Virus record (IMG/VR): IMGVR_UViG_3300046006_001758
Coordinates: 1 to 25,266 of that record
DNA length: 25,266 nucleotides
Strand: one strand, 5' to 3'
From: a virus
The stretch's first letter is position 1. Each line of letters begins with the position of its first letter. The position numbers and the translations under genes are program-made. This document shows, piece after piece, positions 9,776 through 24,825 of the stretch. The notes beneath the pieces were generated by a model. It saw only the letters and a list, made by a program, of their open reading frames with translations, was not told where the DNA came from and made no database searches.

Positions 9776-11677
9776 TCAGGCGGTGATGATGTCCACGAAC
9801 GAAGCGAAGGACTCGAGGTTGCGCACGGCCACATCGACGTCTTGCAAAGCCACGACGCGCACGGTGCCAGCGGTGGAGCCTGTGTAAGGGTCCACCATCA
9901 GGTCCAAGCTGCCCCACATGCCGATCATCAAATCAGCCCAGTTGCCGAACAACATGGCCGACAGGTTGGTGCCTGTGCCCTTGGTGATGTTGGATGGCAC
10001 GGCGTTGGTGATGGCGGTCTGGTAACCGTTCAGCGGTGTGTTGCCTGCTTCGTAGATCGGCTGGCCGTTGGAAGTGGTGAACTTCTCTGTGGACTTGAGC
10101 TTGCCGCGCACCTTGGCGTTGGTCAGGTAGCCCAGAGTGCCCACGTCGGCGTTGGCCGAGCTGATGGCTGTTTCCAGAGCGACGATGTTGGCCCATGTAG
10201 GTGCAGCGCCGTTGGTGCCGCCCACCACTGCGGGTGTGGTCAACAGGGTCATCAAGCCGGAAGGCTGGTTGGACGCGCCCGAGCCGTTGATGGCGGCTTG
10301 CTGGATGGCCAAGCCCAACACGGTGGCCAGGTCGGTTTGCACCAAGCTCTCCACAGCGATGCTCGACTGCAACAACAGGCGGCGGGAAATGTCAGTCCAT
10401 GCGCCCACGGTTTTGGGTGTCATGGTGACTTGGCCGAACGACTGCTGCGACTCAGTAGGCGCGGCGTTTTCTGCCACCCAGTAGGCTGTGGCAGAGCCAG
10501 TTTGCTTGGGGATGGCGACTTGGCCGACCAAGCCAGTCATCATGCGGGTGCCCATGCGGTTGATGACCATGGCGTTGCGCAAGATGTCGATGAAGCTGCC
10601 AGACAACAAGTCTGTGGCCACGGTGTTGCCACCGGCTGTGGGCGTGCCGACCAACAGGTCGCGCTTTTGCACTTCGTTGGGCACAAACAGGCCACGGGCC
10701 GATTTGCCCAGCACTTTGGACTGAGCTTCGGAGCACTCGCGCTCGAAAGCGGCGGCGCGTTGGGCGGCTTGGTCGCCGGGGTTGCTCAGCGCGTTGAGGG
10801 CACGCATCAAGCTGTAACGCTTGACTTCGGCCTTGTCCATGCCGATGTCGGCTGTGGCGACGGGCTTGGTGCTCATGACGCGCAGGGCTTCGGCTTGGAA
10901 CTGCTCAACAGTGTGGCCAGCCTGAATGGACTTCATGGCCAGCTCAGCGCCGCCAGGGATGGAGGCTGCGATTTTGGTGATGTCGGCGGCGTGGTTGCGC
11001 TGGTCGACGACTTCGATGACGGAATCGGTCATTTTCTTTTCCTTCGATTTGATGGAGGGGGTGATAACGGTGGGGGCGGTGCGCTCTGCAGGCACGGGCT
11101 CGGGCAAAGTGGCCTCGGTCACGGCAGCTGGGGCTGCTGTGGTGTCGGGTTCTTGGCTGCGGCCCACGCCAACGCTGGCGTCAGCTGGCACGGAGACCAG
11201 CGAAACTTCGTAAGGCGTCCAAGAGGTCACGCGGTAGGTTTCCACACCGTCCTTTGTGCTCTCCAAAAGCGCCTCATTGATCATGTAGCCGACGGACACA
11301 TTGCGGCGGATGCCGTCGCGCACGTCTTGCCACACTTCCTCTGCGCGAACGCTTTTGCCAAAGCGCACCACGGCTCGACCTACCCGGTCGGTGCCGATTT
11401 CGACAGATTCGATAACGCCCACGACATCTCGGGTGTCGTGGTCGCATAACAGGTTGGCACCCGAGCGCAGGCGGCTGGTGTCCATGGCGCTGGGGGTGCA
11501 GTCCAAAATCTCGATGCCCCACCACCGCTCATAAGGTTGCTCGCTGGCAAAAGCCAAAGTGGCGGTGCGGGCGGTTTCGTCAATGGCGGCGCGTTCGACC
11601 ACCAAGCCGCGCACGCTGCGCTTGTCTTGGTTGATCTGGCCGATTCGCTCGGCGCTGAGGTGTTGTGCGGTGGTCAT
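9776..11677 (-). CDS. Prohead protease-major capsid protein fusion (HK97-like)
   Basis: This 633-aa protein combines two functions usually encoded separately. Residues 1 to about 170 form a prohead protease of the HK97/herpesvirus assemblin type, with H80 (LLCDHD), S128 (RNVSVGY) and E157 (PYEVSLVSVPAD) as the likely catalytic triad. Residues about 175-215 are a Pro/Ala/Glu linker. Residues 216-633 form the HK97-fold major capsid protein, with a helical scaffold-like delta region, then GRLFVP-like ARGLFVPNEVQ, AYWVAENAAPTES and the C-terminal DPYTGSTAGTVRV. I chose the ATG at 11677, which has AAAGG nine bases upstream, over the longer GTG form at 11719 that lies inside the 33-bp repeat. An internal ATG at 11032 has a strong ribosome binding site and may give free capsid protein. 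Confidence 0.92.
   Translation of the reverse strand: MTTAQHLSAERIGQINQDKRSVRGLVVERAAIDETARTATLAFASEQPYERWWGIEILDCTPSAMDTSRLRSGANLLCDHDTRDVVGVIESVEIGTDRVGRAVVRFGKSVRAEEVWQDVRDGIRRNVSVGYMINEALLESTKDGVETYRVTSWTPYEVSLVSVPADASVGVGRSQEPDTTAAPAAVTEATLPEPVPAERTAPTVITPSIKSKEKKMTDSVIEVVDQRNHAADITKIAASIPGGAELAMKSIQAGHTVEQFQAEALRVMSTKPVATADIGMDKAEVKRYSLMRALNALSNPGDQAAQRAAAFERECSEAQSKVLGKSARGLFVPNEVQKRDLLVGTPTAGGNTVATDLLSGSFIDILRNAMVINRMGTRMMTGLVGQVAIPKQTGSATAYWVAENAAPTESQQSFGQVTMTPKTVGAWTDISRRLLLQSSIAVESLVQTDLATVLGLAIQQAAINGSGASNQPSGLMTLLTTPAVVGGTNGAAPTWANIVALETAISSANADVGTLGYLTNAKVRGKLKSTEKFTTSNGQPIYEAGNTPLNGYQTAITNAVPSNITKGTGTNLSAMLFGNWADLMIGMWGSLDLMVDPYTGSTAGTVRVVALQDVDVAVRNLESFASFVDIITA
11032..11046 (-). 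promoter_or_regulatory. Internal ribosome binding site and ATG for separate capsid protein synthesis
   Basis: Inside the protease-capsid gene an AAGGA is followed after seven bases (AAAGAAA) by an in-frame ATG at 11032. Translation from here would give a 418-aa protein starting MTDSVIEVVDQRN, which corresponds to the delta-domain start of an HK97-type capsid subunit. The surrounding peptide is Lys-rich (KSKEKK), so the A-richness could be explained by coding alone. The Shine-Dalgarno match and spacing are nevertheless among the best in the window. Proteolysis of the fusion is the alternative route to free capsid protein. Confidence 0.55.
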
Positions 11678-11696: not shown

Positions 11697-11726
11697 ATTA
11701 AATGGGCGGTGGTGTTCACTTGTTAA
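11697..11726 (-). promoter_or_regulatory. Candidate promoter for the capsid-tail block
   Basis: On the minus strand TTAACA (11726-11721) lies inside the 33-bp repeat, followed after 18 bases by TTTAAT (11702-11697). Each hexamer matches five of six sigma-70 consensus bases. Transcription would begin around 11690, leaving a leader of about a dozen bases that contains the AAAGG of the capsid fusion gene. The equivalent place at the other repeat copy has the same TTAACA but only a poor -10 (GACATT, 18090-18085), so an activator may be needed there. This is a pattern match only. Confidence 0.4.
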
Positions 11727-11745
11727 GCAAAACGGTGAACACTTC
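11712..11745 (-). repeat. 33-bp dispersed repeat with inverted repeat, copy 1
   Basis: Bases 11713-11745 are identical to 18101-18133 over all 33 positions. The element contains the inverted repeat GTGTTCAC (11712-11719) and GTGAACAC (11735-11742), separated by 15 bases. It begins at the stop codon of the 73-aa gene and ends 35 bases before the start of the protease-capsid fusion gene. A perfect 33-bp match between two intergenic sites six kilobases apart is far beyond chance. An operator/activator site, a promoter element or an RNA processing hairpin are the main possibilities. Confidence 0.9.
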
Positions 11746-11965
11746 ACGGGTGCATGAAGCAAAGCAGCTCGGCCTCGCGGCGGCGGCGGTTGCGGCGCAG
11801 GGGCGCGGGGGGCGGCTGCCACATCCACGGCGCACCAATGCGCAAGGGGCGGCGGCGCTTACCCTTCACGCCGCCAGCGGCTGGCGCGTCTTCGCTCACC
11901 TTGCCCCAGGTGTTCTTCCAGGTATTGGCCCAGCTTTTGGCCCAAGCCGATTTGCGGGCGGTCAT
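11744..11965 (-). CDS. Small basic, Trp-rich protein of unknown function
   Basis: This 73-aa protein starts at an ATG that overlaps the preceding stop (ATGA) with a GAGGG nine bases upstream, so it is probably translated. The N-terminus has four tryptophans in a regular spacing (SAWAKSWANTWKNTWGKV), compatible with an amphipathic helix. The C-terminal half is very basic (KGKRRRPLR, RRNRRRREAE) and Pro-rich. I recognise no family. A nucleic-acid- or capsid-binding role would fit its charge and its place directly before the capsid gene, but that is conjecture. Its stop codon lies at the edge of repeat copy 1. Confidence 0.6.
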   Translation of the reverse strand: MTARKSAWAKSWANTWKNTWGKVSEDAPAAGGVKGKRRRPLRIGAPWMWQPPPAPLRRNRRRREAELLCFMHP

Positions 11966-12336
11966 GGGGCGTAACCCTCGGGGCCCCATTCATCACCCTC
12001 GGCCCCGGTGCCACCCACGGGCACGGTGTTGACCTGGACGATGTTGGCGTTGAGGGTGGTGGCGGCAATTTCGGCCAGCGTCAAAAGCCCATTAGGCGCA
12101 GGCAACACCTCGACGCCATTTGCCCAATAAATCTCTCCGCTGGCGATTTTGTTTGCCCCATCAAAGTAGCAAACCAGGTACTTGCCGTCAGCCGATCCGC
12201 TGGGCATGTCGGCATAAAACTCCCCGAGGCTGCCAATCTCTGTCATCGCCAGCCCCGCCTGGACAAGCAAGCCGTCTTTGTAGAGCGAGAAAGTGATGGT
12301 TTGGCCGTGCAGCGCCGAAAGGGTGATGGGTGCCAT
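11962..12336 (-). CDS. Hypothetical beta-rich head-region protein
   Basis: This 124-aa acidic protein reads as one beta-sandwich-like domain. GQTITFSLYKDGLLVQ, EFYADMPSGSADGKYLVCYF and SGEIYWANGVEVLP alternate strand and turn in the way of small phage immunoglobulin-like or adhesin-like domains. The last 40 residues are a Leu/Ala/Thr helix-like segment and a Gly/Glu-rich end (GGTGAEGDEWGPEG). Lying between a fibre-like gene and the capsid gene, it could decorate the head or belong to the fibre, but no named family is recognised. Its stop overlaps the start of the next gene. Confidence 0.7.
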   Translation of the reverse strand: MAPITLSALHGQTITFSLYKDGLLVQAGLAMTEIGSLGEFYADMPSGSADGKYLVCYFDGANKIASGEIYWANGVEVLPAPNGLLTLAEIAATTLNANIVQVNTVPVGGTGAEGDEWGPEGYAP

Positions 12337-12341
12337 ACTGC

Positions 12342-12692
12342 TTACCCCAAGGCCTTTTCAGACGCCACATCATCTGCTGGAGGTGACGGCACTTCTTCGG
12401 GTTTTTCAGGTGCAGCGCAAACCTCAAAACCCGGAAAAAACTCCAGCGCCACCTCATGCATCAAAGTGAAAAGATCGGGGCGGCGCACGTTGATCTCGTA
12501 TTTCCCAAGGTGGGCGGTGTGTGACTGTCGGTTGTCGAAAAACGCTTGCTCGTTTTCAAACATCATCACGCTCACCGACACACCGTAGGGAAACGAAGCG
12601 GATGCGAGCACAAACACCAGTTCACACTTCTTCGCGGTCAGCGGGTCACGTGGAACGGGTACAAATTGAGATCCGTTAGGATTTTTCAGCAT
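12342..12692 (-). CDS. Hypothetical protein (head region)
   Basis: This 116-aa protein begins MLKNPNGSQFVPVPRDPL. A ribosome binding site (AGGTG) lies within the end of the preceding 68-aa gene, which it overlaps by 17 bases. The middle (KCELVFVLASASFPYGVSVSV, then MMFENEQAFFDN) looks like a folded alpha/beta core. The C-terminus is an acidic Pro-rich tail (EKPEEVPSPPADD). The frame is open to 12779, but the upstream start lacks a binding site and would bury much of the previous gene. No family recognised; coding is supported by spacing, binding site and composition. Confidence 0.65.
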   Translation of the reverse strand: MLKNPNGSQFVPVPRDPLTAKKCELVFVLASASFPYGVSVSVMMFENEQAFFDNRQSHTAHLGKYEINVRRPDLFTLMHEVALEFFPGFEVCAAPEKPEEVPSPPADDVASEKALG

Positions 12693-12882
12693 TGGACACC
12701 TCGCCTGTGTTGGTTGTTGCTGCGTCAGTTGCGGGCTTCGCTTTCCGCTTGGGTTTTTCTGGCGGGTTGATGGCCACATGAATAGCCTCTGCGGATTCGC
12801 GCAGCTTGTCGTGCTGATCGGCTGTAAGCAGTGCGAGGCGCGAGGCTTGGTACAAGTTCGACAGTGCGGTTTGAATGTCCAT
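12676..12882 (-). CDS. Small hypothetical protein
   Basis: This 68-aa soluble protein has a helical N-terminal half (MDIQTALSNLYQASRLALLTADQHDKL and on, residues 1-37) and a Lys/Pro/Ala-rich C-terminal tail (NPPEKPKRKAKPATDAA). A good AAGGA ribosome binding site precedes the ATG by six bases, and the fibre-like gene ends 14 bases upstream. It could be a small chaperone or accessory protein for the fibre, judging only from position. No transmembrane segment is present, so it is not a spanin. Confidence 0.65.
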   Translation of the reverse strand: MDIQTALSNLYQASRLALLTADQHDKLRESAEAIHVAINPPEKPKRKAKPATDAATTNTGEVSNAEKS

Positions 12883-12896
12883 GATTTTCCTTCGAG

Positions 12897-13520
12897 TTAA
12901 AAGGCCACGCGCAGCTCACCCGTGGCGGTGCGGTAGACGGCGCCAGAGGTCATGCCGCCAGCAATGGCGGATGGGTTGTCGGCAAATACGGGCAGTTCGG
13001 CCACGTGGAGCCTGGATGTCGGGTATGCTGTCCCTATGCCGACATCTCCATTGGCTGTCAGAGTCATCCTATAGCCGCCTCCCGCTTGATAAAAAGCAAA
13101 GCTACCAAGTGGAGCCCAGGCCTGTGGCCCAGTAGATATAAAACTCCAAGACTGGCCACCTACTGGACGACTATCAATAGATAAAGCTGTTCCAACTCCA
13201 CCACCGTCATTTACGATATTGAGTGGGCCAACTGCGTTGTTATCAGTTGAGCCTTTAACCTCTAGTTTATGCGTTGGTGTCTTCGTCCCGACCCCTAACC
13301 GCTTGTTCGTGTTGTCCCAAAACAGGTTGTCGTTGTCTTGCGCAAGCGTGGTGCCGTTTGAAAATGGGATTGACCCAGCGGTCAACGCCGGGACCGTCGG
13401 GATGGCTGCCAGCCGATCGGCCACGGCCTTGACCGACGGATACTTGATGTCACTCGCAGCGTCAGCAAGAAAGTCAGTCGATTTGTTGAATATGTATTCG
13501 GTGTTAGCTGTTGCGTGCAT
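12897..13520 (-). CDS. Fibre-like structural protein, possibly a head fibre
   Basis: This 207-aa protein has tail-fibre hallmarks. An N-terminal SDIKYPSVKAVADRL motif is common at the head end of fibre shafts. Two shaft repeats of the type RLGVGTKTPTHKLEVKG and GDVGIGTAYPTSRLHV flank a central domain (residues about 95-150) rich in Gly, Ser and aromatics. A short C-terminus includes SGAVYRTATGELRVAF. It lacks an endosialidase-type chaperone domain. It lies in the head/lysis module rather than behind the tail-tip gene, so a head fibre or decoration role is possible. The DNA encoding its centre (about 13060-13300) is visibly richer in A+T than its neighbours. The frame is open to a GTG at 13577, but the ATG at 13520 avoids overlap with the preceding gene. 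Confidence 0.75.
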   Translation of the reverse strand: MHATANTEYIFNKSTDFLADAASDIKYPSVKAVADRLAAIPTVPALTAGSIPFSNGTTLAQDNDNLFWDNTNKRLGVGTKTPTHKLEVKGSTDNNAVGPLNIVNDGGGVGTALSIDSRPVGGQSWSFISTGPQAWAPLGSFAFYQAGGGYRMTLTANGDVGIGTAYPTSRLHVAELPVFADNPSAIAGGMTSGAVYRTATGELRVAF

Positions 13521-13554
13521 CGCTTTTGTCCGTAATCCTTTGCAGACTGCCAGC

Positions 13555-14070
13555 TCAAAGGCTTGCAGGCCCACCACTTGGCGGCGAGACAGTCATATCG
13601 CTTAGGCCATCCACCAACGCTGATGACGCACCCGCATGCCGGCTGGCGATCATGTGCAGCAAGCCGGGGTGCATGCGCCATGGTTCGGCGTGGCCGATGA
13701 TGGCGGCGCAGACTTCACTGCAAAACCATCGGTGTGGGTGTTCGCCGCTGATGAATGGCAGCACGCTGCGCACGCAGCCGATGAAGTCATACGGGCGGCC
13801 AGCGTTTCCGGCCAGAAAATTCCAGAACGCGTCTTCGTCCACATGGGGCAGCGCGATGACGTCCCATTTGTCGGGGTTAAGTTGCATGCGCTTGATGCGC
13901 ACGCCGCCTTCGGTGCCCGCGCTGGTCAGGCAGTCCACGGGGCCAGCAAATGGGTCGCCCAGACAAATCTCGCTGTGGCTGTAGATTGACCTGGTGAAGT
14001 ACCGGATGGCGCGGTTGATCAGCCCTTTCCAGCCGGGCTGGGTGCCTTTGTAGCTTGCGAGGTAGAGCAT
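13555..14070 (-). CDS. Permuted papain-like (YiiX/NlpC-P60-related) cysteine hydrolase
   Basis: This 171-aa protein carries the motif set of circularly permuted NlpC/P60 enzymes. H32 lies in IYSHSEICLGD near the N-terminus, YDFIG at 94-98, and the presumed nucleophile C117 in RWFCSEV. YiiX-like enzymes hydrolyse amide or acyl bonds, and the substrate here is unknown. It follows two small membrane proteins, so it may be the lytic enzyme of the lysis cassette; no classical endolysin is visible in the window. I chose the ATG at 14070, with GAGG six bases upstream, over the open frame to 14109, which would overlap the previous gene. Such genes are sometimes misannotated as enoyl-CoA hydratase. 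Confidence 0.75.
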   Translation of the reverse strand: MLYLASYKGTQPGWKGLINRAIRYFTRSIYSHSEICLGDPFAGPVDCLTSAGTEGGVRIKRMQLNPDKWDVIALPHVDEDAFWNFLAGNAGRPYDFIGCVRSVLPFISGEHPHRWFCSEVCAAIIGHAEPWRMHPGLLHMIASRHAGASSALVDGLSDMTVSPPSGGPASL

Positions 14071-14078
14071 GGCAGGCC

Positions 14079-14369
14079 TCAGTCTTTGGTGGTGCGGATG
14101 TCGAGCCATGGGCGACTGGTGAAGCGGCTGGCCACCAGGGCATAAATCAGTAAAACACTCACGGCAAAGGCAACATCAATACCCCCGGCGATGTATTCGC
14201 CCATGGCAATGGCGGCAAGCTTGGCGAGCGCGGTCAGACAAGGCAGCAGCACAACAAGGCGCACCCACAATGGGTGCCCGTCGTTGAGCCGGTGGGCGCA
14301 GTAGCCACCGATGGCGGTTAGCGCCAACAGGCACAAAACGAAGCAAATTAAAACGGGCGATGCGGTCAT
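14079..14369 (-). CDS. Small membrane protein, possible second holin or antiholin
   Basis: This 96-aa protein has three hydrophobic segments at about residues 4-22 (VLICFVLCLLALTAIGGY), 36-54 (LWVRLVVLLPCLTALAKLA) and 62-82 (IDVAFAVSVLLIYALVA). It ends in a short charged tail, the topology of class I holins. The ATG has AAGG seven bases upstream. It lies between a clear holin and a permuted NlpC/P60-like enzyme, so a holin or antiholin role is plausible. I recognise no named family. Confidence 0.68.
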   Translation of the reverse strand: MTASPVLICFVLCLLALTAIGGYCAHRLNDGHPLWVRLVVLLPCLTALAKLAAIAMGEYIAGGIDVAFAVSVLLIYALVASRFTSRPWLDIRTTKD

Positions 14370-14415
14370 GGGCGGGCCTTATTTGGGATGGTTTGGGGTT
14401 TATTGCTGCTTGGCA

Positions 14416-14435
14416 GCCCGCTTGAAGGCGCGGGC
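14416..14435. other. Small GC-rich hairpin between holin and second membrane-protein genes
   Basis: GCCCGC at 14416-14421 pairs with GCGGGC at 14430-14435 around an 8-base loop. It lies in the 82-base gap 14370-14451, which otherwise holds nothing I can identify. No T-run follows on either strand, so it does not look like an intrinsic terminator. It could modulate read-through or mRNA stability. Confidence 0.4.
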
Positions 14436-14451
14436 TTCATGGAGTCCGCGG

Positions 14452-14826
14452 TTACATCCCCGCCTTGCCTTTGATCTTGTCGCCCACCGCGCCCAAGATC
14501 ATGGGCAGCTTGTTGCAGTTGAAGCCGACGAACATCGCGATCAGCGCCGGGGTGTAAGCGCCGTCAAGCCCCGGCACCATGCTGGCAACCAAGCTGGTGG
14601 CGGCCCAGCTGAACACCAGCGACACGGTCACGCCGATGAAGATAAAGCCAAGGCTCTGCATGAGGGTCTGCCCCTTCATGCCAGACAGCGCAATGAAGCA
14701 GCCCGCCAGCGCGGAGATGACGACGAGCATGACGTCTGCCGCCACAGGGCCAATGGCCCCGATGAGCAGTGCCAAAAATCCGACACTGGCTGCGCCGGTT
14801 GCGGTGGTAGAAATGGGTTCGGCCAT
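14452..14826 (-). CDS. Holin
   Basis: This 124-aa protein is almost wholly hydrophobic, with three to four membrane segments at about residues 15-48 (long, with a GPVAAD break), 58-82 (LGFIFIGVTVSLVFSWAATS) and 93-112, then a Lys-rich C-terminus (GDKIKGKAGM). Length, N-terminal soluble lead (MAEPISTTATGA) and charged tail are those of phage holins, which form pores in the inner membrane at lysis. It starts five bases after the portal stop, with GAGAG overlapping the portal end. Placing lysis genes directly after the portal is not lambda order. Confidence 0.75.
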   Translation of the reverse strand: MAEPISTTATGAASVGFLALLIGAIGPVAADVMLVVISALAGCFIALSGMKGQTLMQSLGFIFIGVTVSLVFSWAATSLVASMVPGLDGAYTPALIAMFVGFNCNKLPMILGAVGDKIKGKAGM

Positions 14827-14831
14827 GGTGT

Positions 14832-16763
14832 TTACTCTCTCGTTTCGATGGTGTATTCGGTGGTGGTGTTGACGATTTCGTCGTTCGCGTCGCGCTTGAC
14901 GGTTTGCACGGCGCGGGTGGGGTGCTGCACGACCACTTGGGCGGGCGGCATGTTGGCCTCAAAGTTGACGGCGGGCGCGGTGACGTTGACCACAGGGGCG
15001 GCCACGTTGACGACCGGGGCGGCTTGCTGGGGCACGTTGACGACGATGGGCATTTCGGTGGCGACTTCTTTGATGTGCGCGGTCATGGCGTCGGTGAGGC
15101 CGCGCATTTGCGTCTCGATGTCGGCGGTGGACAGTTGCACGGTTGTTTGGCGGTTGTTCAGCCCAGCGATCACAGCCATCAGCTCAGTGTGTTGGCGTTG
15201 CGCCTGGTCGTTGGTAACTGCGCTGTGGCTGGGCTGATCTGTGGTGGCTTGGCTGCGGCCACCGTTGGCCTGCGTGGGCTGTGCGCCTGCGTTGGCGGCG
15301 GTTTGTGCGCCGGGTGCGCCTTCGTAGGCGGTAAGCGCCACGCCAAACTCAGCGGCCAGTGCTTGCGCTTGGCCGATGGCTTTGATGGTGTCTTCGTAGT
15401 CGTAGCCCATCGATGCGCACAGGTCTTGCGGGGCCATGAGGCCCGCTTTGACGGCCAGCACCTTGGCGTTCATGTCGCTTTGTGGGTCCACCCATTCCCA
15501 GCGGCGGGCTTGCCATTCGTGGCGGGCAAACTTGGCGGCTTTGCTGGCAGGCAGGGCCGAGCCGTTGGGCATGACGATCGCGCCCGACAGCAGCGCCATT
15601 TGCAGCCACTGTTTGTAGACGGGCTCAATAAAGCAGCCGATGAACCATTCTTGGTCGTGCGTCCAGCGGTCGCGCTCTTCCAGCGTGCCCGATCGGATGC
15701 TGGAAAAGCTGACGCCTTCCAAGTCATTGGCCAGTGAGTGATAGGCCACGCCCCAGCCGGTGGCGATGCGTTGCAGGCAGGTCTTGGCGAAGGGGCCAAA
15801 TACCTCGTTGGGGTATTTGCTGTCGTGCGGCTGAAAGCTCACGCCCTGGGGCAGTGTGTCGTAGATGCCGGGCTGGGTGGCGGTGATGGTCGCGCCCGAT
15901 GCGTCGGCCTGCCCGATGGGGGCCATGCCGTCTGGCGTGGTGAAAAAGCCGTAATGGTTGGCACCATGCTCAGCGGCCAGCAGCGCCGACAGCATGAAGC
16001 CGCCCAGGTGGTGCAGGCTGAGCATGCCGGGGGCCATCCAAGGGATCCCTCGCACTTGCTCGGCGCGGGTGACCTTGAACCGGTGCAGCATTTCGTCTGC
16101 GGCCACGCGGATGCGGTGGCGGCTGGTGCGTGTGCCGTCATTGGGGTGCGCTTCAAACAACCACACGGCCACGGGGCGGCGGTACTTGTTGACCTCCACG
16201 CCCATGATGACGGTGTTGTCGCCATAGCTGCCGTTGTGGGTGGTGTCGATGCGGTCCACATCGATGACTTGCAGCGCGAAGTTGAAGCGGTTGCCCGCGT
16301 CTGCGCCTTTGACGATGCGCACCAGAAACTCGCCATCGCTGGGCAGGCTGCCCATGATGTGGGTGCACAGGTCGGCAAAGCTCAGTTGCCCCGTCACGTC
16401 ACACGCTTGGCCCCATTCGGCCCAGGCTTGCTCGATGGCGGCATTGGCCAGGCGGTCGGGTTTGCCGGGGGAATCCTCCACCCGCGCTTGCAGGCGCACG
16501 CCCACGGGGCCGACCACGTTGTCTTCGACCATGCGCTTGAACTTGGCGGCATAGTCGTTGTTTTGCACCAGCTGGCGACCACGGCGGCGCAGCAGGTCCA
16601 GGTCTTGGTGCAGCTCTTGGTTGATGCTGTTGGCCGTGGAAAACCATTCGCTGGTCATGCGGTCCAGGCGGGCGGCTTCAAAGCGGCGCACTTGGCCCTT
16701 GGCCGGGGTGTTGCCGGTGACCCATGCGGCGGCGCGGCGGAAAATGTTGGGTTGTTGGCTCAT
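14832..16763 (-). CDS. Portal protein (lambda gpB family)
   Basis: This 643-aa protein is the portal through which DNA enters and leaves the head. The body matches lambda-family portals: N-terminal helices with RRFEAARLDRMTSEW, then NQELHQDLDLLRRRGRQLVQ, DNVVGPVGVRLQAR, QVIDVDRIDTTHNGSYGDN and GIPWMAPGMLSLHHLGGFML. The C-terminal 120 residues are an unusual low-complexity extension with an ETQMRGLTDAM helix and repeats of VVNV(A/T)AP. It lacks the ClpP-like protease that lambda has downstream; instead a HK97-like protease is fused to the capsid protein. It overlaps the phosphatase gene by ATGA. Confidence 0.95.
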   Translation of the reverse strand: MSQQPNIFRRAAAWVTGNTPAKGQVRRFEAARLDRMTSEWFSTANSINQELHQDLDLLRRRGRQLVQNNDYAAKFKRMVEDNVVGPVGVRLQARVEDSPGKPDRLANAAIEQAWAEWGQACDVTGQLSFADLCTHIMGSLPSDGEFLVRIVKGADAGNRFNFALQVIDVDRIDTTHNGSYGDNTVIMGVEVNKYRRPVAVWLFEAHPNDGTRTSRHRIRVAADEMLHRFKVTRAEQVRGIPWMAPGMLSLHHLGGFMLSALLAAEHGANHYGFFTTPDGMAPIGQADASGATITATQPGIYDTLPQGVSFQPHDSKYPNEVFGPFAKTCLQRIATGWGVAYHSLANDLEGVSFSSIRSGTLEERDRWTHDQEWFIGCFIEPVYKQWLQMALLSGAIVMPNGSALPASKAAKFARHEWQARRWEWVDPQSDMNAKVLAVKAGLMAPQDLCASMGYDYEDTIKAIGQAQALAAEFGVALTAYEGAPGAQTAANAGAQPTQANGGRSQATTDQPSHSAVTNDQAQRQHTELMAVIAGLNNRQTTVQLSTADIETQMRGLTDAMTAHIKEVATEMPIVVNVPQQAAPVVNVAAPVVNVTAPAVNFEANMPPAQVVVQHPTRAVQTVKRDANDEIVNTTTEYTIETRE

Positions 16764-17506
16764 GCGAAAAAGGCCTCTTGTTCTGGCTGGCGGGGCTTTT
16801 TGGTGTGGCTGGCCTTACCCATCGTGGACGCATCGAGGATGGTGAAACCGTTGCCCTTGGGGTGCCAGCCCGCCGTGTCAATGAAGATCGTGTTGCCCAG
16901 GCTGGTCACGCGCTCCATAGGCGTGTGACCGACAACCACGGCGTCAACGCCCGAAACCATCGAGTCGTCCATGTTGTTGATGCGGTCACGCGACCACGTA
17001 GCCATCATGGTCAGGTGATCGCGTTGCATTGGGGTGAGGTCGTCTCGTTGAAGATCGACTGCAAAGGCTGTCCAGTCGTTGGATGGGCAGCCCGCATGGA
17101 CGATGCCCAACAGGCCCAAATCCGTTTCCAGCTCAATTGCGATCGGCAGCGCAGCGAATGCGTCGGCGTAAAGCTGGCGCACCTCGGGCGTGTTGCCGAC
17201 ATTCCAAGCGCCACCATTGGCCACGTAGTTCGACCGATCACCCATGCCTTGCGCCCAGTCGATGGCCATGCCTTCGTGATTGCCCTGCACGGCGTGAAAC
17301 CATGGCTTGGCCAGCCATTCAAGCGCATCGTCTGACTCTGGCCCACGGTCGACAAGATCACCGACCGAAAACAGGCGGTCGCCCGCCTCTGGGTTGAAGC
17401 CAACTTCATCCAGCAAGGATTGCAATTTGGTGAAGTGGCCGTGGATGTCGCCCACGATCAGATCGCGGCCCGTGGTGTTTTTGGCGAATTTCTTGAACAG
17501 AGTCAT
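16760..17506 (-). CDS. PP2A-type serine/threonine protein phosphatase (metallophosphoesterase)
   Basis: This 248-aa enzyme has the complete PPP-family motif set. GDIHG carries D20 and H22, GDLVDRGP carries D50 and R54, and GNHE carries N76 and H77. HAG with H137 and VVVGHTPM with H194 complete the set. These spacings match the lambda protein phosphatase closely, and the residues bind two metal ions and the phosphate. It should dephosphorylate Ser/Thr, possibly also Tyr or His, residues in host or phage proteins. The gene lies in the middle of the head operon between connector and portal, with ATGA overlaps on both sides and a GAGG binding site. It is therefore co-expressed with late structural proteins, unlike lambda's gene in the nin region. 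Substrate unknown. Confidence 0.92.
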   Translation of the reverse strand: MTLFKKFAKNTTGRDLIVGDIHGHFTKLQSLLDEVGFNPEAGDRLFSVGDLVDRGPESDDALEWLAKPWFHAVQGNHEGMAIDWAQGMGDRSNYVANGGAWNVGNTPEVRQLYADAFAALPIAIELETDLGLLGIVHAGCPSNDWTAFAVDLQRDDLTPMQRDHLTMMATWSRDRINNMDDSMVSGVDAVVVGHTPMERVTSLGNTIFIDTAGWHPKGNGFTILDASTMGKASHTKKPRQPEQEAFFA

Positions 17507-18060
17507 GCGCCAAACCTCACGTAAATGCGGCCAGGCACACCGCCCGTGCCGTTGGCGGCGTTGGTGGCGGCTTGCTCGCGGGCCACTTCGCCTTTGAGGC
17601 GGTCGCGCAGTTGCAGCAGTTCGCCCATGCTGTAGTGTTTGAGGCGGCGGCCTGCGATTTCGTACTCTTGCACGTTGCTGGTGGCGGTCTTGAGCATGAC
17701 GGCCTCAACGGCGTCGAGCATGACTTTGCTGGGGGTGCGGCTGTCGAGGGTGGCCACGCTGAAAGATGGCTCGACCACGATCTGGCCCGTGCCCACGGTG
17801 TAGACCTCGCCCGCGTTGCTGACCTGCGCCCGCCAGGTGTAGGTGCCCGCCACCCACGCGGCGGTGGTGGCTGCGCTGGCGGTGGCCAGGTGGTCATCGC
17901 CCTGCGCGGTGGCCGTGATGGTGATCTTGGCCGTGGCGTTGATGAGTGTGTAAACCAGCGCCCAGCCCGCGCTGGCAGGGTAGTCGGCCAGCGTCTTAAG
18001 CCACTTGGCGGTGTCGCCCGCAATGATGCGGAGGGGTTCGGTGGTGGGGGTGGTGGTCAC
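17503..18060 (-). CDS. Two-domain head protein: beta-sandwich plus gpW-like joining segment
   Basis: This 185-aa protein has an N-terminal beta domain (about residues 5-95: PLRIIAGDTAKWLKTL, WALVYTLINATAKITI, AGTYTWRAQVS) resembling small Ig-like phage domains. The C-terminal helical part has LDAVEAVMLKTATSNVQEY, IAGRRLKHYSMGELLQLRD and EVAREQAA. The helical part recalls gpW-type head-tail joining proteins, which have a similar ATVQ...GRR..Y...DL pattern. It lies between terminase and portal, as lambda W does. The start is a GTG at 18060, giving MTTTP, the usual beginning of this protein type. A TTG form starting at 18144 would run through the terminator tail and repeat. Function is inferred. 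Confidence 0.75.
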   Translation of the reverse strand: MTTTPTTEPLRIIAGDTAKWLKTLADYPASAGWALVYTLINATAKITITATAQGDDHLATASAATTAAWVAGTYTWRAQVSNAGEVYTVGTGQIVVEPSFSVATLDSRTPSKVMLDAVEAVMLKTATSNVQEYEIAGRRLKHYSMGELLQLRDRLKGEVAREQAATNAANGTGGVPGRIYVRFGA

Positions 18061-18100
18061 GGTGCTTCGGTGTGGTTTGCACCGAATGTCACCGCTGTGA

Positions 18101-18133
18101 TGTTCACTTGTTAAGCAAAACGGTGAACACTTC
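18101..18133 (-). repeat. 33-bp dispersed repeat with inverted repeat, copy 2
   Basis: This copy is identical to 11713-11745 and includes TGTTCAC (18101-18107) and GTGAACA (18123-18129). It lies 14 bases downstream of an intrinsic terminator and 40 bases upstream of the first head gene's GTG start, where a new promoter is needed. TTAACA (18114-18109) occupies the same place as in copy 1. The following bases are only partly conserved and the -10 is weak. Confidence 0.9.
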
Positions 18134-18146
18134 GCCCAGCCCAAAG

Positions 18147-18192
18147 AAAAACCCCCGCGCTCCTGGTGCGCTCGTCAGCGCGGAGGCGGGGG
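18147..18192 (-). terminator. Intrinsic transcription terminator
   Basis: On the minus strand CCCCCGCCTCC (18192-18182) pairs with GGAG-C-GCGGGGG (18163-18152), 11 base pairs with one bulged C. It is followed at once by TTTTT (18151-18147) and a further CTTT. It lies directly after the 63-aa gene and before repeat copy 2. It should end transcription from the replication/packaging side and isolate the head operon, unless antitermination operates. Confidence 0.88.
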
Positions 18193-18210
18193 CCGTGTTG
18201 TTGGTTTTGT

Positions 18211-18402
18211 TTATTTAGGCGTTTGCCCGTGAAAGTAGCGCATCGGCAGCGGCTGCAGCCTGTCGGCCTGCACATGCTCCACCGGGCCAAGCCCCCAGCC
18301 ATCGTCCACCAGCCGCCGCACCGGCACCGTGACCCCGCCCGATTTCATGGCCATGACCTTGGCCTGGTGGAATAGGTAGAGGTGGCCTTGTTGGGCGGTC
18401 AT
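18211..18402 (-). CDS. Small hypothetical protein before the terminator
   Basis: This 63-aa protein starts three bases after the stop of the Mor-like gene, with a strong AAGGGG binding site overlapping that stop. It ends just ahead of the intrinsic terminator, so it is the last gene of its transcript. It contains QGHLYLFHQAKVMAMKSGG and LVDDGWGLGPVEHVQADRLQPL, mixed alpha/beta with no motif I recognise. Small partners of this kind occur near terminase genes in many prophages, function unknown. Confidence 0.65.
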   Translation of the reverse strand: MTAQQGHLYLFHQAKVMAMKSGGVTVPVRRLVDDGWGLGPVEHVQADRLQPLPMRYFHGQTPK

Positions 18403-18405
18403 GCC

Positions 18406-18813
18406 TTACCCCTTGCTGTTGATGATTTTCCAAAGCGCTGTGCGCCCCAGCCCGTAGCGGCGCTCCAGCAGGGCCATGCGCTCGCCGTTTTGGTGGTCGC
18501 GCAAAATGGATGCGTTGCGGCTGCTGCGTTCGCGGCGGGCGGTTTCTGTCGTGCTGGGGATGTAGACCCGATCCCCTGCGTATTCGCGGTGTTTTTGTTC
18601 GCTGACTTTCAGGGCCAGCGCTTGCAGCTGGTCGCGGTGCTCGGTCAGCGCGGCGCAAAAGTCAGGGGCCAACTGCAGCACGGCGTCGAGCACATCGTCG
18701 ATCAGGTCATCGGGCGCGGCCACAAATGCGGGGGTGACCATTTTCTTGGCATCAGGCAAATGGTCGTCCAGCAGGTCGGCGGGCGTGGCGGTGGCGGTGG
18801 CTTTTTTCACCAT
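18406..18813 (-). CDS. Mor/C-family transcription activator
   Basis: This 135-aa protein resembles the middle-gene activator Mor of phage Mu. An N-terminal acidic helical dimerisation part (DDLIDDVLDAVLQLAPDF) is followed by the short strand GDRVYIPS at residues 80-87, the same GxVYIP signature as Mor. Residues about 100-131 form a helix-turn-helix (ILRDHQNG, MALLERRYGLGRTALWKII). Mor binds a dyad next to weak promoters and recruits RNA polymerase. Here the gene overlaps the terminase end by seven bases. It is followed by one small gene, a terminator and the first of two identical sites containing an inverted repeat. Control of the late head operon is therefore a reasonable inference. The binding site itself is not known. 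Confidence 0.85.
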   Translation of the reverse strand: MVKKATATATPADLLDDHLPDAKKMVTPAFVAAPDDLIDDVLDAVLQLAPDFCAALTEHRDQLQALALKVSEQKHREYAGDRVYIPSTTETARRERSSRNASILRDHQNGERMALLERRYGLGRTALWKIINSKG

Positions 18814-20864
18814 GTTCGGGCGTTTCCTGGTTGGCGCGATGGGCGGCGCATTTGGGGGCGGTTTTGCTGGGCTTGGGCAGCGGCGGCTTGCAGGTCGGCG
18901 GCTGCGTCCGGACCCGTAAATTTATCTGGTTGTTCGCTGTTTGTGTCAGTGTTTGTGGCTGGCAATGCAAACAAATCTCCGCTGCGGGGTTGCACGGCGT
19001 CTTCCAGCTTTTCCCACATGGCCGAGGTGTAGGCGTGCAGGCCCAGGGCGTGGGTGCAAAAAATGGCGTAGACGGTGCAGTCCAGCACTTCGTTGCGGGC
19101 GCGTTTGGTGTTGACCCACTTGTATTCAATGCCCCGGCTGGTCTTTTGCGGCACGCGGCTTTCGGCTGTGAGCTGGGTGTAGAACTCGATGGGCAGGTCT
19201 TTGGAAAAGTGCACGTATCCCGCGCCGGGCTGGGTGACCATGAGGCGGCCATAAACCAGGTCTTTGGCGGTGTCGGTGCCCACGTACCACAGGCGCACGC
19301 CGCGCTTGAGCACTTGGCCGCGCCAATTGACGTCTTGAATGGTGGCTTTGCCCTTGACCATTTTGCTGGGCTGCGGGTCACCGCGCACGGCAAACACGCG
19401 CATGCGTTCGCGGTTGCGGCAGTAGTTGTAGGCCTGGTGCGTGAAGTGGCCGCCCGTGTCCACGGCCATGGCTTCGATTTTCATGCCGCGCCCGTTGGCG
19501 TGGCTGAAAACGGTCTCGCGGTAGGTGTCGAGCTTGTCCCATTCGCGCTCGTCGGCGGGGTTGGCGGGAATGACGGTGTAGTCGACCGCCCACATCTCTT
19601 CGCCCTTGCCGATGGCCCAGGTGACCAGCTCGAAGCGGTTGTCTTGCACGTCGCACCCGGTGACCAAAACCAAGCCACCGAAGGGCACGGTGAAGCGTTT
19701 GTAGCTTTCGGCACGCAGGGCCAGGGCGTTTTCGTCGGCCTTCTCGAGCGTTTCTTCCCAGCACTCGCCCAGCGTTTCGTTGACAAAGCCTTCCAGCGGG
19801 CCAGTCTCGCCTGCCTTCTTTTTGGTGTTGGCTTCCAAAAACTCGCGCACGATGTCTGGCCATGAGCGCTGGGGGCTGTAGGCCGTCCAGATGTGAAAGG
19901 CCACATGGCGCGGGGCGTTGCGCTTGTCGCCGTGGGCGTTGCGCCACACGCCGTCGTGGCCATAGCGGTATTCGCCGCACTCGCTCACCCAGCACGCGCC
20001 TTGCTCCCACAGCTTCAGGTAGTCGGCCTGCGTGATGGTGCCCCGGCAATGCGGGCACACATGGCGCACGGTGGACGGGTCCGCGCCGTCCCACTTGAAG
20101 CCGTGGTCTACCTTGGCCCCGCCCCATGCCAACGGGTGCTCGGCCTCGCAGTGTGGGCAGGTGATGTGGTAGGTCACCCGCGCATCGGCGTGCTCTTCGC
20201 GGTATTCCACATGGCTCAAGCCTTTGACCCGTGGCGTGCTGCCCGCGATCAGCTTGGGGAACGGGGCCCCTTCCAGGCGGCCACGCGCCAGGGTGATCGG
20301 GTCCGACGATTTCTCGATCTTTTGGTCAAAGCCGTCGGCTTCGTCCAGCATGGCCACGGCCACAGTGATGCGCCGGTAAGCCCGCGCCGCCTTGCCGCCC
20401 AAAATGTGCAGCACCGAGCCCAAGAACGACTTGAGCTTCATGGTGTCTTCTTTGCCCGTCAACAGCACCGGCTTGATCGCGTCCACATCGCGCAGCATCG
20501 GGTCAACCTCAGACTTGACAAAGCTGTCACGGTCATCGTCGGTCGGCTGCCACAGCGCCTGCTTGCGGCGGCGGTGGGCTGCGTTGTACGCCATAAACGC
20601 CAAAAGCGTTTTGGAATAGCCAACCCGCTTGGCTTTGCGCATGGTCACTTCCTCAATGTCATCATTGCTGAAGGCGTCCATCCAGCCTCGCTGGAATGGA
20701 TATGCGGTCCACCGCCCTTGGGTGTGACTTGCTTCGGCGCTCAAAAAGAAATGCTCCTCTGCCCAGGCGCTCAAAGTCTGTGGCGCCACAGCCTGCAAGG
20801 GCGACAAGCCGGTGGTGATCGCCGCCAATACAGCTTGCAGGGTTTCGGATGGAGCTCGGCTCAT
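18807..20864 (-). CDS. Terminase large subunit (GpA family)
   Basis: This 685-aa packaging motor has the lambda gpA layout. An N-terminal ATPase has a deviant Walker A (KRVGYSKT, residues 79-86) and Walker B MLDEAD (172-177). A zinc-binding loop contains CPHC (236-239) and CPHC (270-273). The C-terminal nuclease starts with TGCDVQDNRFE (presumed metal ligand D405) and includes AVDTGGHFT. The final 60 residues are a low-complexity Ala/Gln/Pro/Arg tail that probably docks on the portal. It translocates DNA into the prohead and cuts concatemers; GpA relatives typically use cos ends. The start overlaps the small subunit stop by ATGA. Confidence 0.96.
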   Translation of the reverse strand: MSRAPSETLQAVLAAITTGLSPLQAVAPQTLSAWAEEHFFLSAEASHTQGRWTAYPFQRGWMDAFSNDDIEEVTMRKAKRVGYSKTLLAFMAYNAAHRRRKQALWQPTDDDRDSFVKSEVDPMLRDVDAIKPVLLTGKEDTMKLKSFLGSVLHILGGKAARAYRRITVAVAMLDEADGFDQKIEKSSDPITLARGRLEGAPFPKLIAGSTPRVKGLSHVEYREEHADARVTYHITCPHCEAEHPLAWGGAKVDHGFKWDGADPSTVRHVCPHCRGTITQADYLKLWEQGACWVSECGEYRYGHDGVWRNAHGDKRNAPRHVAFHIWTAYSPQRSWPDIVREFLEANTKKKAGETGPLEGFVNETLGECWEETLEKADENALALRAESYKRFTVPFGGLVLVTGCDVQDNRFELVTWAIGKGEEMWAVDYTVIPANPADEREWDKLDTYRETVFSHANGRGMKIEAMAVDTGGHFTHQAYNYCRNRERMRVFAVRGDPQPSKMVKGKATIQDVNWRGQVLKRGVRLWYVGTDTAKDLVYGRLMVTQPGAGYVHFSKDLPIEFYTQLTAESRVPQKTSRGIEYKWVNTKRARNEVLDCTVYAIFCTHALGLHAYTSAMWEKLEDAVQPRSGDLFALPATNTDTNSEQPDKFTGPDAAADLQAAAAQAQQNRPQMRRPSRQPGNARTW

Positions 20865-23337: not shown

Positions 23338-24125
23338 GCGGCGGCCTTAGCGGCTTTGGCGCGGTAGCTGTCCCAGGTGAACGACACCATGCGGCCACCG
23401 CCTTCGCGCATACGGTCCACCAGGCGCTCGCCCATGTAGTCGACCAATGCTGGCGCGTCCAAGTTGGTCAACAAGATCGTGGGCAGCATGTTTTCGTAGC
23501 GGTTGTTCAGGATCTCGAAAATCAGCGCCTTGTTGAAGTCGGTGCCGTAATCCATGCCCACCTCGTCCAAGATCAGCAGCGGAATGCCGCTGAAGTGGTC
23601 GATCTCTTTTTGCTCGGTGGTGTCTGAGTCTTTGGCAAACGAGCTTTTGATCTGGCGCATGACTTCGGCCACGGTGGCAAATTGCACCTCGCCGCCTTGC
23701 TCGATCACCTCATGGGCAATGCTGCAGGCCAAGTGGGTTTTGCCTGCCCCCGCCTTGCCAGAAAAGATCAGGCCCGTGCCCGCCTGGCTGACCTTTGACC
23801 AGCTTTCAGCGTAGTTGCGGCAAATGTTCAGCGCCTTGGCTTGGCCATCGTTTTCGACGGCGTAGTTGTCAAAGCGGCGGGTCTTGAAGCGCAAGGGAAT
23901 GCGGCTTCGTTCATGGCGGGCGATTCGGCTGGCCTCGATCTGGCGCAGACGCCTCTCTTCGATTTCCTTTTTTGTGCGCTCTTCTGCTTCTTTTTGGCAG
24001 ATTGGGCATCGCGTGCTGCCGTGCCCCTGCCTTCCAGCGATGGTGAACAATTTGACGGTGTAGTCGCCATGCGTTGTGCAGGTGCGCGATTCCTCGACCA
24101 CGTTTGAATCAGAAACGGCCATCAT
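23334..24125 (-). CDS. DnaC-like helicase loader (AAA+ ATPase)
   Basis: This 263-aa protein loads the host replicative helicase at the phage origin, the role of lambda P. It has an N-terminal zinc-finger-like group (C16, H19, C40, C43), a charged coiled-coil linker (residues 44-75), and an AAA+ domain. That domain carries Walker A GKAGAGKT (123-130), Walker B LLILDEVG and the sensor-like TILLTNLD, then RLVDRMREGGG. The N-terminal zinc group followed by DnaC fold is common in Burkholderiales prophages. The ATG at 24125 has AGGAG seven bases upstream and overlaps the initiator gene by 17 bases. Initiator and loader are translated together. Confidence 0.92.
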   Translation of the reverse strand: MMAVSDSNVVEESRTCTTHGDYTVKLFTIAGRQGHGSTRCPICQKEAEERTKKEIEERRLRQIEASRIARHERSRIPLRFKTRRFDNYAVENDGQAKALNICRNYAESWSKVSQAGTGLIFSGKAGAGKTHLACSIAHEVIEQGGEVQFATVAEVMRQIKSSFAKDSDTTEQKEIDHFSGIPLLILDEVGMDYGTDFNKALIFEILNNRYENMLPTILLTNLDAPALVDYMGERLVDRMREGGGRMVSFTWDSYRAKAAKAAA

Positions 24126-24825
24126 GGGTGACTCCTTTTGTGTAATCCATGCCCGAAATGTCGTGGTAGACCTTTGGCTTCGCGCCGGGCTTGCCAGCGG
24201 CTTTGTCCTCTGGCTTGACCCAATCGGCCTTGAACGACTGCCAGCCGCGTGTGCAGCACATGGCCAGCGCTTGGTCCATCGTGATGCCAGCCTTTTCGGC
24301 CTCGGTGCGCATGCCTGCCAGGGCGGTTTCGGTCAATGCTGATTTTTTCGATTTCCTGATCAACAAAAAGTCAGACCACACCGATTCCGAAATATCGTCT
24401 GGACGCGGCAGCGTCTTATTTCGGTTAAGTGATGGTTCTATTGACGGTTCATTGACGGTTATGGGTGCCAAATTGGCGGGGGTGGGGTGCCAAATTGGCG
24501 GGGGTGGGGGTGCCAAATTGGCGGGGGTGGGGTGACAATCTGGCGGGGGTGCCAAATTGGCGGGGGTGCCAAATTGGCGGGGGTTGAGGTGGTAAACGGT
24601 GCTTCGACCTGTACGCTCAACTGCCCTGACGGCTTTCATTTTTGTCAGTTCTGATATGTGCCTTTGGACGGTCCGCTCGCCCATGCTGCAGCGCTCAGCA
24701 ATGGTCGAAATGCTTGGGTAGCACTCGCCCTGGTCGTTTGCGTTGTCACACAGGCTCAAAAGAACCATCTTGGGGCCAGATGCGATATCGGACTTCCACG
24801 CCAAGGTCATCAATGCAATGCTCAC
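24109..24825 (-). CDS. Replication initiator protein (lambda O-like, HTH)
   Basis: This 238-aa protein has an N-terminal winged helix (residues about 18-80: LSLCDNANDQGECYPSIST, AERCSMGERTVQRHISEL), typical of phage replication initiators that recognise the origin. Residues 86-121 form a Pro/Ala-rich linker in which TPANLAPPP recurs, encoded by six 18-bp DNA repeats. The C-terminal domain (VWSDFLLIRKSKKSALTE, then MTSM-free helix, CTRGWQSFKADWV) probably contacts the helicase loader encoded next door. As in lambda O, the origin appears to lie within the gene. It overlaps its upstream neighbour by ATGA. Confidence 0.85.
   Translation of the reverse strand: MSIALMTLAWKSDIASGPKMVLLSLCDNANDQGECYPSISTIAERCSMGERTVQRHISELTKMKAVRAVERTGRSTVYHLNPRQFGTPANLAPPPDCHPTPANLAPPPPPIWHPTPANLAPITVNEPSIEPSLNRNKTLPRPDDISESVWSDFLLIRKSKKSALTETALAGMRTEAEKAGITMDQALAMCCTRGWQSFKADWVKPEDKAAGKPGAKPKVYHDISGMDYTKGVTHDGRF
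24441..24460. repeat. Short direct repeat flanking the iterons
   Basis: TTGACGGTT occurs at 24441-24449 and again at 24452-24460, in the A+T-richer stretch (about 24340-24460) directly next to the iterons. Such a stretch next to initiator sites is where origin unwinding would be expected. The repeat could also be accidental, being short. Confidence 0.4.
24466..24584. repeat. Iteron array, probable replication origin
   Basis: Six copies of TGCCAAATTGGCGGGGGT start at 24466, 24488, 24511, 24533, 24550 and 24567. Five are perfect. The fourth is degenerate (TGACAATCTGGC...). Each perfect copy contains the palindrome GCCAA-A-TTGGC. The spacing is 22, 23, 22, then 17 and 17 bases, so the first copies lie two helical turns apart and the rest closer. 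The array is inside the initiator gene, next to an A+T-richer stretch, as in the lambda origin. Confidence 0.85.

Follow-up and report, generated by a model that had tools for sequence, protein, structure and literature searches.

The DNA analysed here, a virus record of 25,266 nt (hereafter the window), very probably contains, judging from its sequence and from its relatives, a Mor/C-family late activator gene together with its two target promoters, in a phage of the lambda type. That the Mor-like protein activates late transcription at these two dyad-bearing promoters is considered highly probable, and would give the large group of lambda-type phages found in Betaproteobacteria a mechanism of late-gene control. 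In the literature searched, which was covered in part, no earlier account of these promoters was found.

A duplicated 33-bp element and its gene context

The predicted promoters are marked by a 33-bp repeat, with copy 1 at positions 11713-11745 and copy 2 at positions 18101-18133. The copies are identical at all 33 positions, as had been claimed in an earlier interpretation of the letters of this DNA (the sequence-only reading), and each contains the perfect dyad TGTTCAC-N15-GTGAACA (11713-11741 and 18101-18129). A search of the whole record allowing up to three mismatches returned these two copies alone, against an expectation of 0.00 from dinucleotide shuffles. Because all recognised phage genes of the window are on the minus strand, the functional reading of the repeat is TGTTCACCGTTTTGCTTAACAAGTGAACA, and all features described below are on that strand. 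Copy 2 is predicted to be the activator site of the connector/portal promoter, based on the identity of the copies and the occurrence of sites at the same place in relatives, and copy 1 that of the protease/capsid-tail promoter, based on the identity of the copies and the portal-capsid position occupied in most relatives.

Copy 1 precedes the capsid-tail block, the first gene of which encodes a protease-capsid fusion (9776-11677; PF05065, E 1e-48, and PF04586, E 2e-10), with its ATG at 11677 located 36 bp downstream of the repeat. Copy 2 precedes the connector-portal block, which starts with a head-tail joining (connector) gene (17503-18060; phrog_5774, E 1e-41), with its GTG start codon at 18060 located about 41 bp downstream of the repeat, and which also contains the portal gene (14832-16763; PF05136, E 3e-88). 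These distances bear out the earlier description of a site 35-40 bases before each structural block. Between the connector and portal genes lies a gene for a NinI-like serine/threonine phosphatase (16760-17506; phrog_246, E 2e-68). The stretch from the portal gene to the capsid promoter is occupied by an extra cassette (11744-14826) containing a tail-fibre-like gene, a phrog_1128 gene, a membrane protein gene and small ORFs, whereas the gap between portal and second site is 10-100 nt in most relatives.

The -35-like hexamer TTAACA, already reported for both copies, is present within the dyad spacer of each (11721-11726 and 18109-18114). Candidate -10 hexamers are found 10 bases downstream of the 29-mer dyad in both cases: GACATT for the portal promoter (18085-18090, with a predicted start at about 18078), assigned through the fixed distance to the dyad described below, and TTTAAT for the capsid promoter (11697-11702, with a predicted start at about 11690), which is kept in the relatives L007, L010 and L012. 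The 18-nt spacing of TTTAAT in copy 1 had been recognised in the sequence-only reading and stands, but GACATT, at the same spacing in copy 2, had been overlooked. A generic sigma-70 scan found no promoter, these -10 hexamers being too weak for it. Just upstream of copy 2, between the TerL-Mor operon and the portal promoter, is an intrinsic terminator (approximately 18140-18194), identified by its fold energy (-33 kcal/mol, z -3.1) and followed by UUUUUCUUU, in agreement with the terminator previously noted at this place.

The activator gene (18406-18813, 135 aa) directly follows its upstream neighbour, the gene for the terminase large subunit TerL (GpA; 18807-20864; PF20454 and PF05876). Its product is, by domain profile, a member of the Mor/C family, matching PF08765 (Mor; E 4e-8, 33.6 bits against a curated cut-off of 24.9) and the PHROG late transcriptional activator family phrog_532, consistent with the original call of a Mor-like protein. 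A profile search with this protein also matched Mu Mor (1rr7, 3e-12) and Mu C (9l0x, 2e-9), as well as 9l0y. An AlphaFold model contains two helices predicted with high confidence, at residues 113-120 and 124-133 (block pLDDT up to 98), the second of which (RTALWKIINS, codons 18415-18444) is the predicted recognition helix, based on this model and on the co-variation with the site arms described below. A whole-chain Foldseek comparison with Mor gave a weak match, below significance (E 0.36), and a tblastn search against isolated phages gave no match. A 63-aa ORF between the activator gene and the terminator (18211-18402), the frame of which is kept in the relatives L007 and L010, had no Pfam or PHROG match.

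Distribution and geometry of the sites in related phages

Relatives were collected using TerL as the bait, which performed far better than the Mor protein, the latter recovering 7 viral loci only and none in bacterial genomes. The survey yielded 157 loci, with 80 taken of the 428 viral TerL relatives counted, and a Mor-like ORF is located right after TerL in 106 loci. Most of the named hosts are Betaproteobacteria (such as Polaromonas, Variovorax, Comamonas, Noviherbaspirillum and Caldimonas), and some are Gammaproteobacteria. When dyad pairs were sought de novo, blind to the arm sequence of the window and to the -10, 37 of 68 Mor-bearing loci yielded a high-scoring pair, whereas 0 of the 25 TerL relatives lacking Mor and 0 of the 68 shuffled loci did so. 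Two loci with a Mor-like ORF, L020 and L021, neither of which has a site pair, had automatically been counted as Mor-lacking, and their reassignment (0/23 Mor-lacking and 37/70 Mor-bearing) leaves the conclusion unchanged. Among the related phages and prophages surveyed, the site pair was thus found only alongside a Mor relative, and the concern, raised at the outset, that the element might be widespread in phages lacking this protein was not borne out.

Weaker or half-site pairs were found in eight further loci (L053/L146, L064, L065, L073, L079, L097 and L129), with the same -10 placement readable by eye in most of them, and about 18 of the 68 Mor-bearing loci, several with a different gene order, had no recognisable pair by any scan. 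In four Mor types (L053/L146, L097, L129 and L073), the left arm and core (e.g. GTCGCAATTTGGCCTAGTTTT) are repeated after Mor and before the capsid gene and the right arm is absent; in L129 and L073 a -10-like hexamer is still located 37-38 nt from the left arm. This arrangement suggests that the left arm and core may be enough at these sites, and that the right arm is not always needed.

The gene order in related phages and prophages is TerL, Mor-like gene, site, portal, site, capsid. Usually 5-70 nt separate the Mor domain from the first site (about 300-670 nt in the close relatives of the window, in L016 and in L052), and the second site usually lies between portal and capsid. The arm sequence is particular to each phage and, where both sites are present, is shared by the two. 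For example, L004 contains both identical sites and an identical Mor, the shorter L006 contains one site, and L005 contains the site and the recognition helix of the window, though its Mor is just 79% identical. By contrast, L010 contains GTTTAC...GTAAAC and L007 contains GTCAAC...GTTGAC at both sites, both arms of both copies having changed jointly relative to the window. The L007 Mor is 92% identical to that of the window, yet its recognition helix differs (YSLSKQAIWKIINS versus YGLGRTALWKIINS).

When whole records were searched with the arm sequence, every phage in the records of 28-43 kb showed exactly two copies, as did most host genomes of 3.4-5.8 Mb; one genome of 6.6 Mb had one extra match. 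Two copies are likewise present in the whole record of L012. Noviherbaspirillum denitrificans (L051 and L094) contains two copies of the prophage with identical sites, giving four in the genome. In every near-complete phage counted by arm sequence, the predicted regulon would consist of two promoters, those of portal and capsid. Some loci have further features in this region: a tRNA-Leu (cag) gene lies between the small post-Mor gene and the terminator in L008 (1063-1145), L009 (3239-3321) and L010 (3796-3878), and the Stenotrophomonas prophage L091 contains two tandem GTCTCA dyads 74 bp apart, 437 and 511 nt after TerL.

The geometry of the sites was analysed in 41 non-redundant phages (82 sites), the -10 having played no part in choosing the sites. 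Of the 82 sites, 59 have the hexamer xAxxxT starting exactly 11 nt past the dyad, with about 3 expected by chance. At other distances it is present in 0-5 sites, except for 10 sites at +10, which mostly reflect a one-base register shift in the CGGAAC class. The dyad spans 24-28 bp, varying between phages, with 6-bp arms and 12-16-bp spacers. Even where the arms differ greatly in sequence, a core similar to TTTGCCTTAA is often retained in the spacer. If the xAxxxT hexamer is the -10, the left arm begins at about -50, the right arm occupies about -29 to -24, and the centre of the dyad is at about -37.

Co-variation of recognition helix and site arms

Across the 41 non-redundant phages, the distance between arm sequences correlates with the distance between recognition helices (r 0.58). 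The correlation persists in a partial Mantel test that accounts for TerL and for the remainder of Mor (r 0.51, p 2e-4; highest of 5000 permutations, 0.27), and TerL adds nothing to the prediction of the arm once the helix is included. In 29 pairs of nearest TerL relatives, the arm differs in 20, and the contact residues differ in 20/20 of those; conversely, the 7 pairs sharing contact residues all share the arm (one-sided Fisher 2e-5).

The pairing of helix and arm is illustrated by GLGRTALWKI with GTTCAC, HRNTLWKI with GTTTAC, SRMALWKI with GTAAAC, and SKQAIWKI, from the Mor 92% identical to that of the window, with GTCAAC. Mors with the helix SRATxYR are all accompanied by GTCTCA, despite distances of up to 0.89 in the rest of the protein. 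Further pairs include RTRxYEI with GTCCGG, RRILQ with GTGAAA, SDRYVR and its variants with CGGAA, and SRQRIHQ with GTCAAG. The same contact residues can accompany different arms, as in SRRTxYR, found with GTGACA and GTGCCA, and DRRTLYR, found with GCGGGA. The strongest couplings are between helix column 3 (T125 in the window) and arm base 3, and between column 7 (K129) and base 5, where Arg is found with G at base 3, and Arg with C and Glu with G at base 5, as ranked by z-scores that ignore phylogeny. These residue-base couplings are chemically sensible and suggest direct readout.

In held-out loci with an identical helix, about half of which are near relatives of training loci, the predicted arm together with a correctly placed -10 was found in 12 of 16, compared with 0 of about 330 for control arms. 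The site arms follow the Mor recognition helix, giving a natural recognition code that spans dozens of viruses. In these natural activator-site pairs, changes at a few helix positions go along with changes at a few bases, making the DNA specificity of the Mor/C family directly testable, with the cryo-EM entries of Mu Mor (9l0y) and Mu C (9l0x) with RNA polymerase providing a structural frame. Orthogonal activator-promoter pairs may also serve as laboratory tools.

Proposed mechanism and comparison with known systems

In the mechanism proposed, the activator would be made from the terminase operon and bind the two dyads via its predicted C-terminal helix-turn-helix. It would most likely do so as a dimer or a larger oligomer, each 6-bp arm (GTTCAC...GTGAAC) receiving one recognition helix. 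The bound activator would recruit host RNA polymerase to two promoters with a weak, rigidly placed -10 (GACATT or TTTAAT) and at best a poor -35, the portal-side promoter directing expression of connector and portal, and the other that of protease, capsid and tail. Read-through from the terminase operon would be blocked by the terminator in front of the first site, so that the structural genes would wait for the activator. As four activator chains are listed in the Mu C-RNA polymerase entry (9l0x), an assembly larger than a dimer may, by analogy, act at the window sites. We infer binding, oligomeric state, activation and timing from sequence comparisons, and the early proposal that the Mor-like protein activates both sites draws support from the arm/helix co-variation, the fixed -10 and the restriction of the sites to Mor-bearing loci.

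The same dyads could instead serve as operators, with the Mor-like protein or a different phage regulator repressing portal and capsid. The right arm, inferred to span about -29 to -24, would fall between the -35 and the -10, a region frequently used by repressors, and the sequence evidence addresses the pairing of protein and site rather than the sign of regulation. Repression is nevertheless improbable, as the -10 hexamers are poor and lack a good -35, like those of activator-dependent promoters, Mor and C, of the same family, act as activators (PMC4287176, PMC4461284), and portal and capsid are late genes, with the activator gene in an upstream operon behind a terminator. Binding by a host regulator or a different phage regulator merely correlated with Mor is more improbable still: the support for Mor consists of co-variation, but the arms still follow the Mor helix once TerL and the remainder of Mor are taken into account, and host genomes are mostly devoid of sites outside the prophage. 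A role of the repeats as an RNA hairpin or processing site, independent of the Mor-like protein, has a slightly lower probability again; the copy 1 dyad can fold (-13 kcal/mol, z -3.4), but transcription is predicted to start beyond the dyad, the arms change in step with the Mor recognition helix, and an Rfam search of the window gave no match. Least probable is that the repeats were left behind by recombination or module exchange, as a recent duplication or a boundary sequence with no regulatory role. The identity of the copies, including the spacer, and their bracketing of a module might suggest this, but relatives contain other sequences at these two positions, and within one phage the two match fully or almost fully. 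The arms also change jointly in the two copies and in the two half-sites, the co-variation across 41 phages contradicts such an origin, and the fixed -10 would be left without a reason. The RNA hairpin, recombination scar and host operator readings were rejected.

Activation by the Mor-like protein has its closest parallel in Mu. In both cases a Mor domain with a C-terminal helix-turn-helix, a predicted one in the window protein, is encoded directly upstream of the promoter concerned, which has a dyad upstream and a -10 with no proper -35, and the order of activator gene, terminator and activated promoter is the same. The Mu Mor element spans -51 to -36 (PMC4287176) and consists of 16 bp, with two 5-bp repeats and a 6-bp spacer (PMC4390567), such that the upstream half-site begins at about -51/-50 in both systems. 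The Mu Pm element is centred at -43.5 and controls a middle operon, whereas the window-family dyads, which lack this 16-bp length and centre, span 24-28 bp with 6-7-bp arms, are centred at about -37, and precede the late structural genes of a lambda-type phage. As a refinement of the earlier comparison with Mor/C dyads, the left arm coincides with the Mu Mor upstream half-site, but the right arm is located elsewhere (about -29 to -24), and the sites do not conform to the Pm geometry. By eye, a long dyad GTAAA...TTTAC, with its left arm from about -50 as in the window family, can also be read in Mu Pm itself (L168, 1975-2060; the Mu Mor query sequence was 100% identical to Mu records). Mu C, a Mor paralogue, resembles the window protein as predicted here in activating several late promoters (lys, I, P and mom) (PMC4461284), and the order of C gene, terminator and Plys matches that of the window. 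It differs in acting at four promoters with divergent sites upstream of -35, compared with two promoters and near-identical sites in the window, and a long dyad could not be fitted by eye to Mu Plys.

We put forward, as a possibility somewhat short of even, that this family represents a widespread late switch of distinct geometry, in which an activator pair or tetramer straddles the -35, with arms at -50 and in the -35/-10 spacer, in a mode unlike that of Mu Mor and C, and in which the fast-diverging helices constitute a readable residue-to-base code. If so, the late promoters of uncharacterised phages would be predictable from the activator sequence alone.

In P2-type phages, the phage-encoded activator Ogr/Delta likewise acts on dyads at several late promoters. 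The zinc-binding Ogr recognises TGT-N12-ACA near -55, whereas the window protein is a Mor-family protein with a predicted helix-turn-helix, its sites differ in sequence and position, and their outer TGT and ACA are 23 nt apart. In lambda, Q acts by antitermination from one late promoter. The phages whose late genes Q governs share their TerL (GpA) and portal families with the window, but the window has two predicted promoters adjoining a putative helix-turn-helix activator, the gene for which appears to fill the regulator slot held by Q in the lambda system. Elsewhere in the window, about five tandem copies of a 17-23-nt unit (GGGTGCCAAATTGGCGGGGGTG) are present at 24463-24584, within an ORF at 24109-24825.
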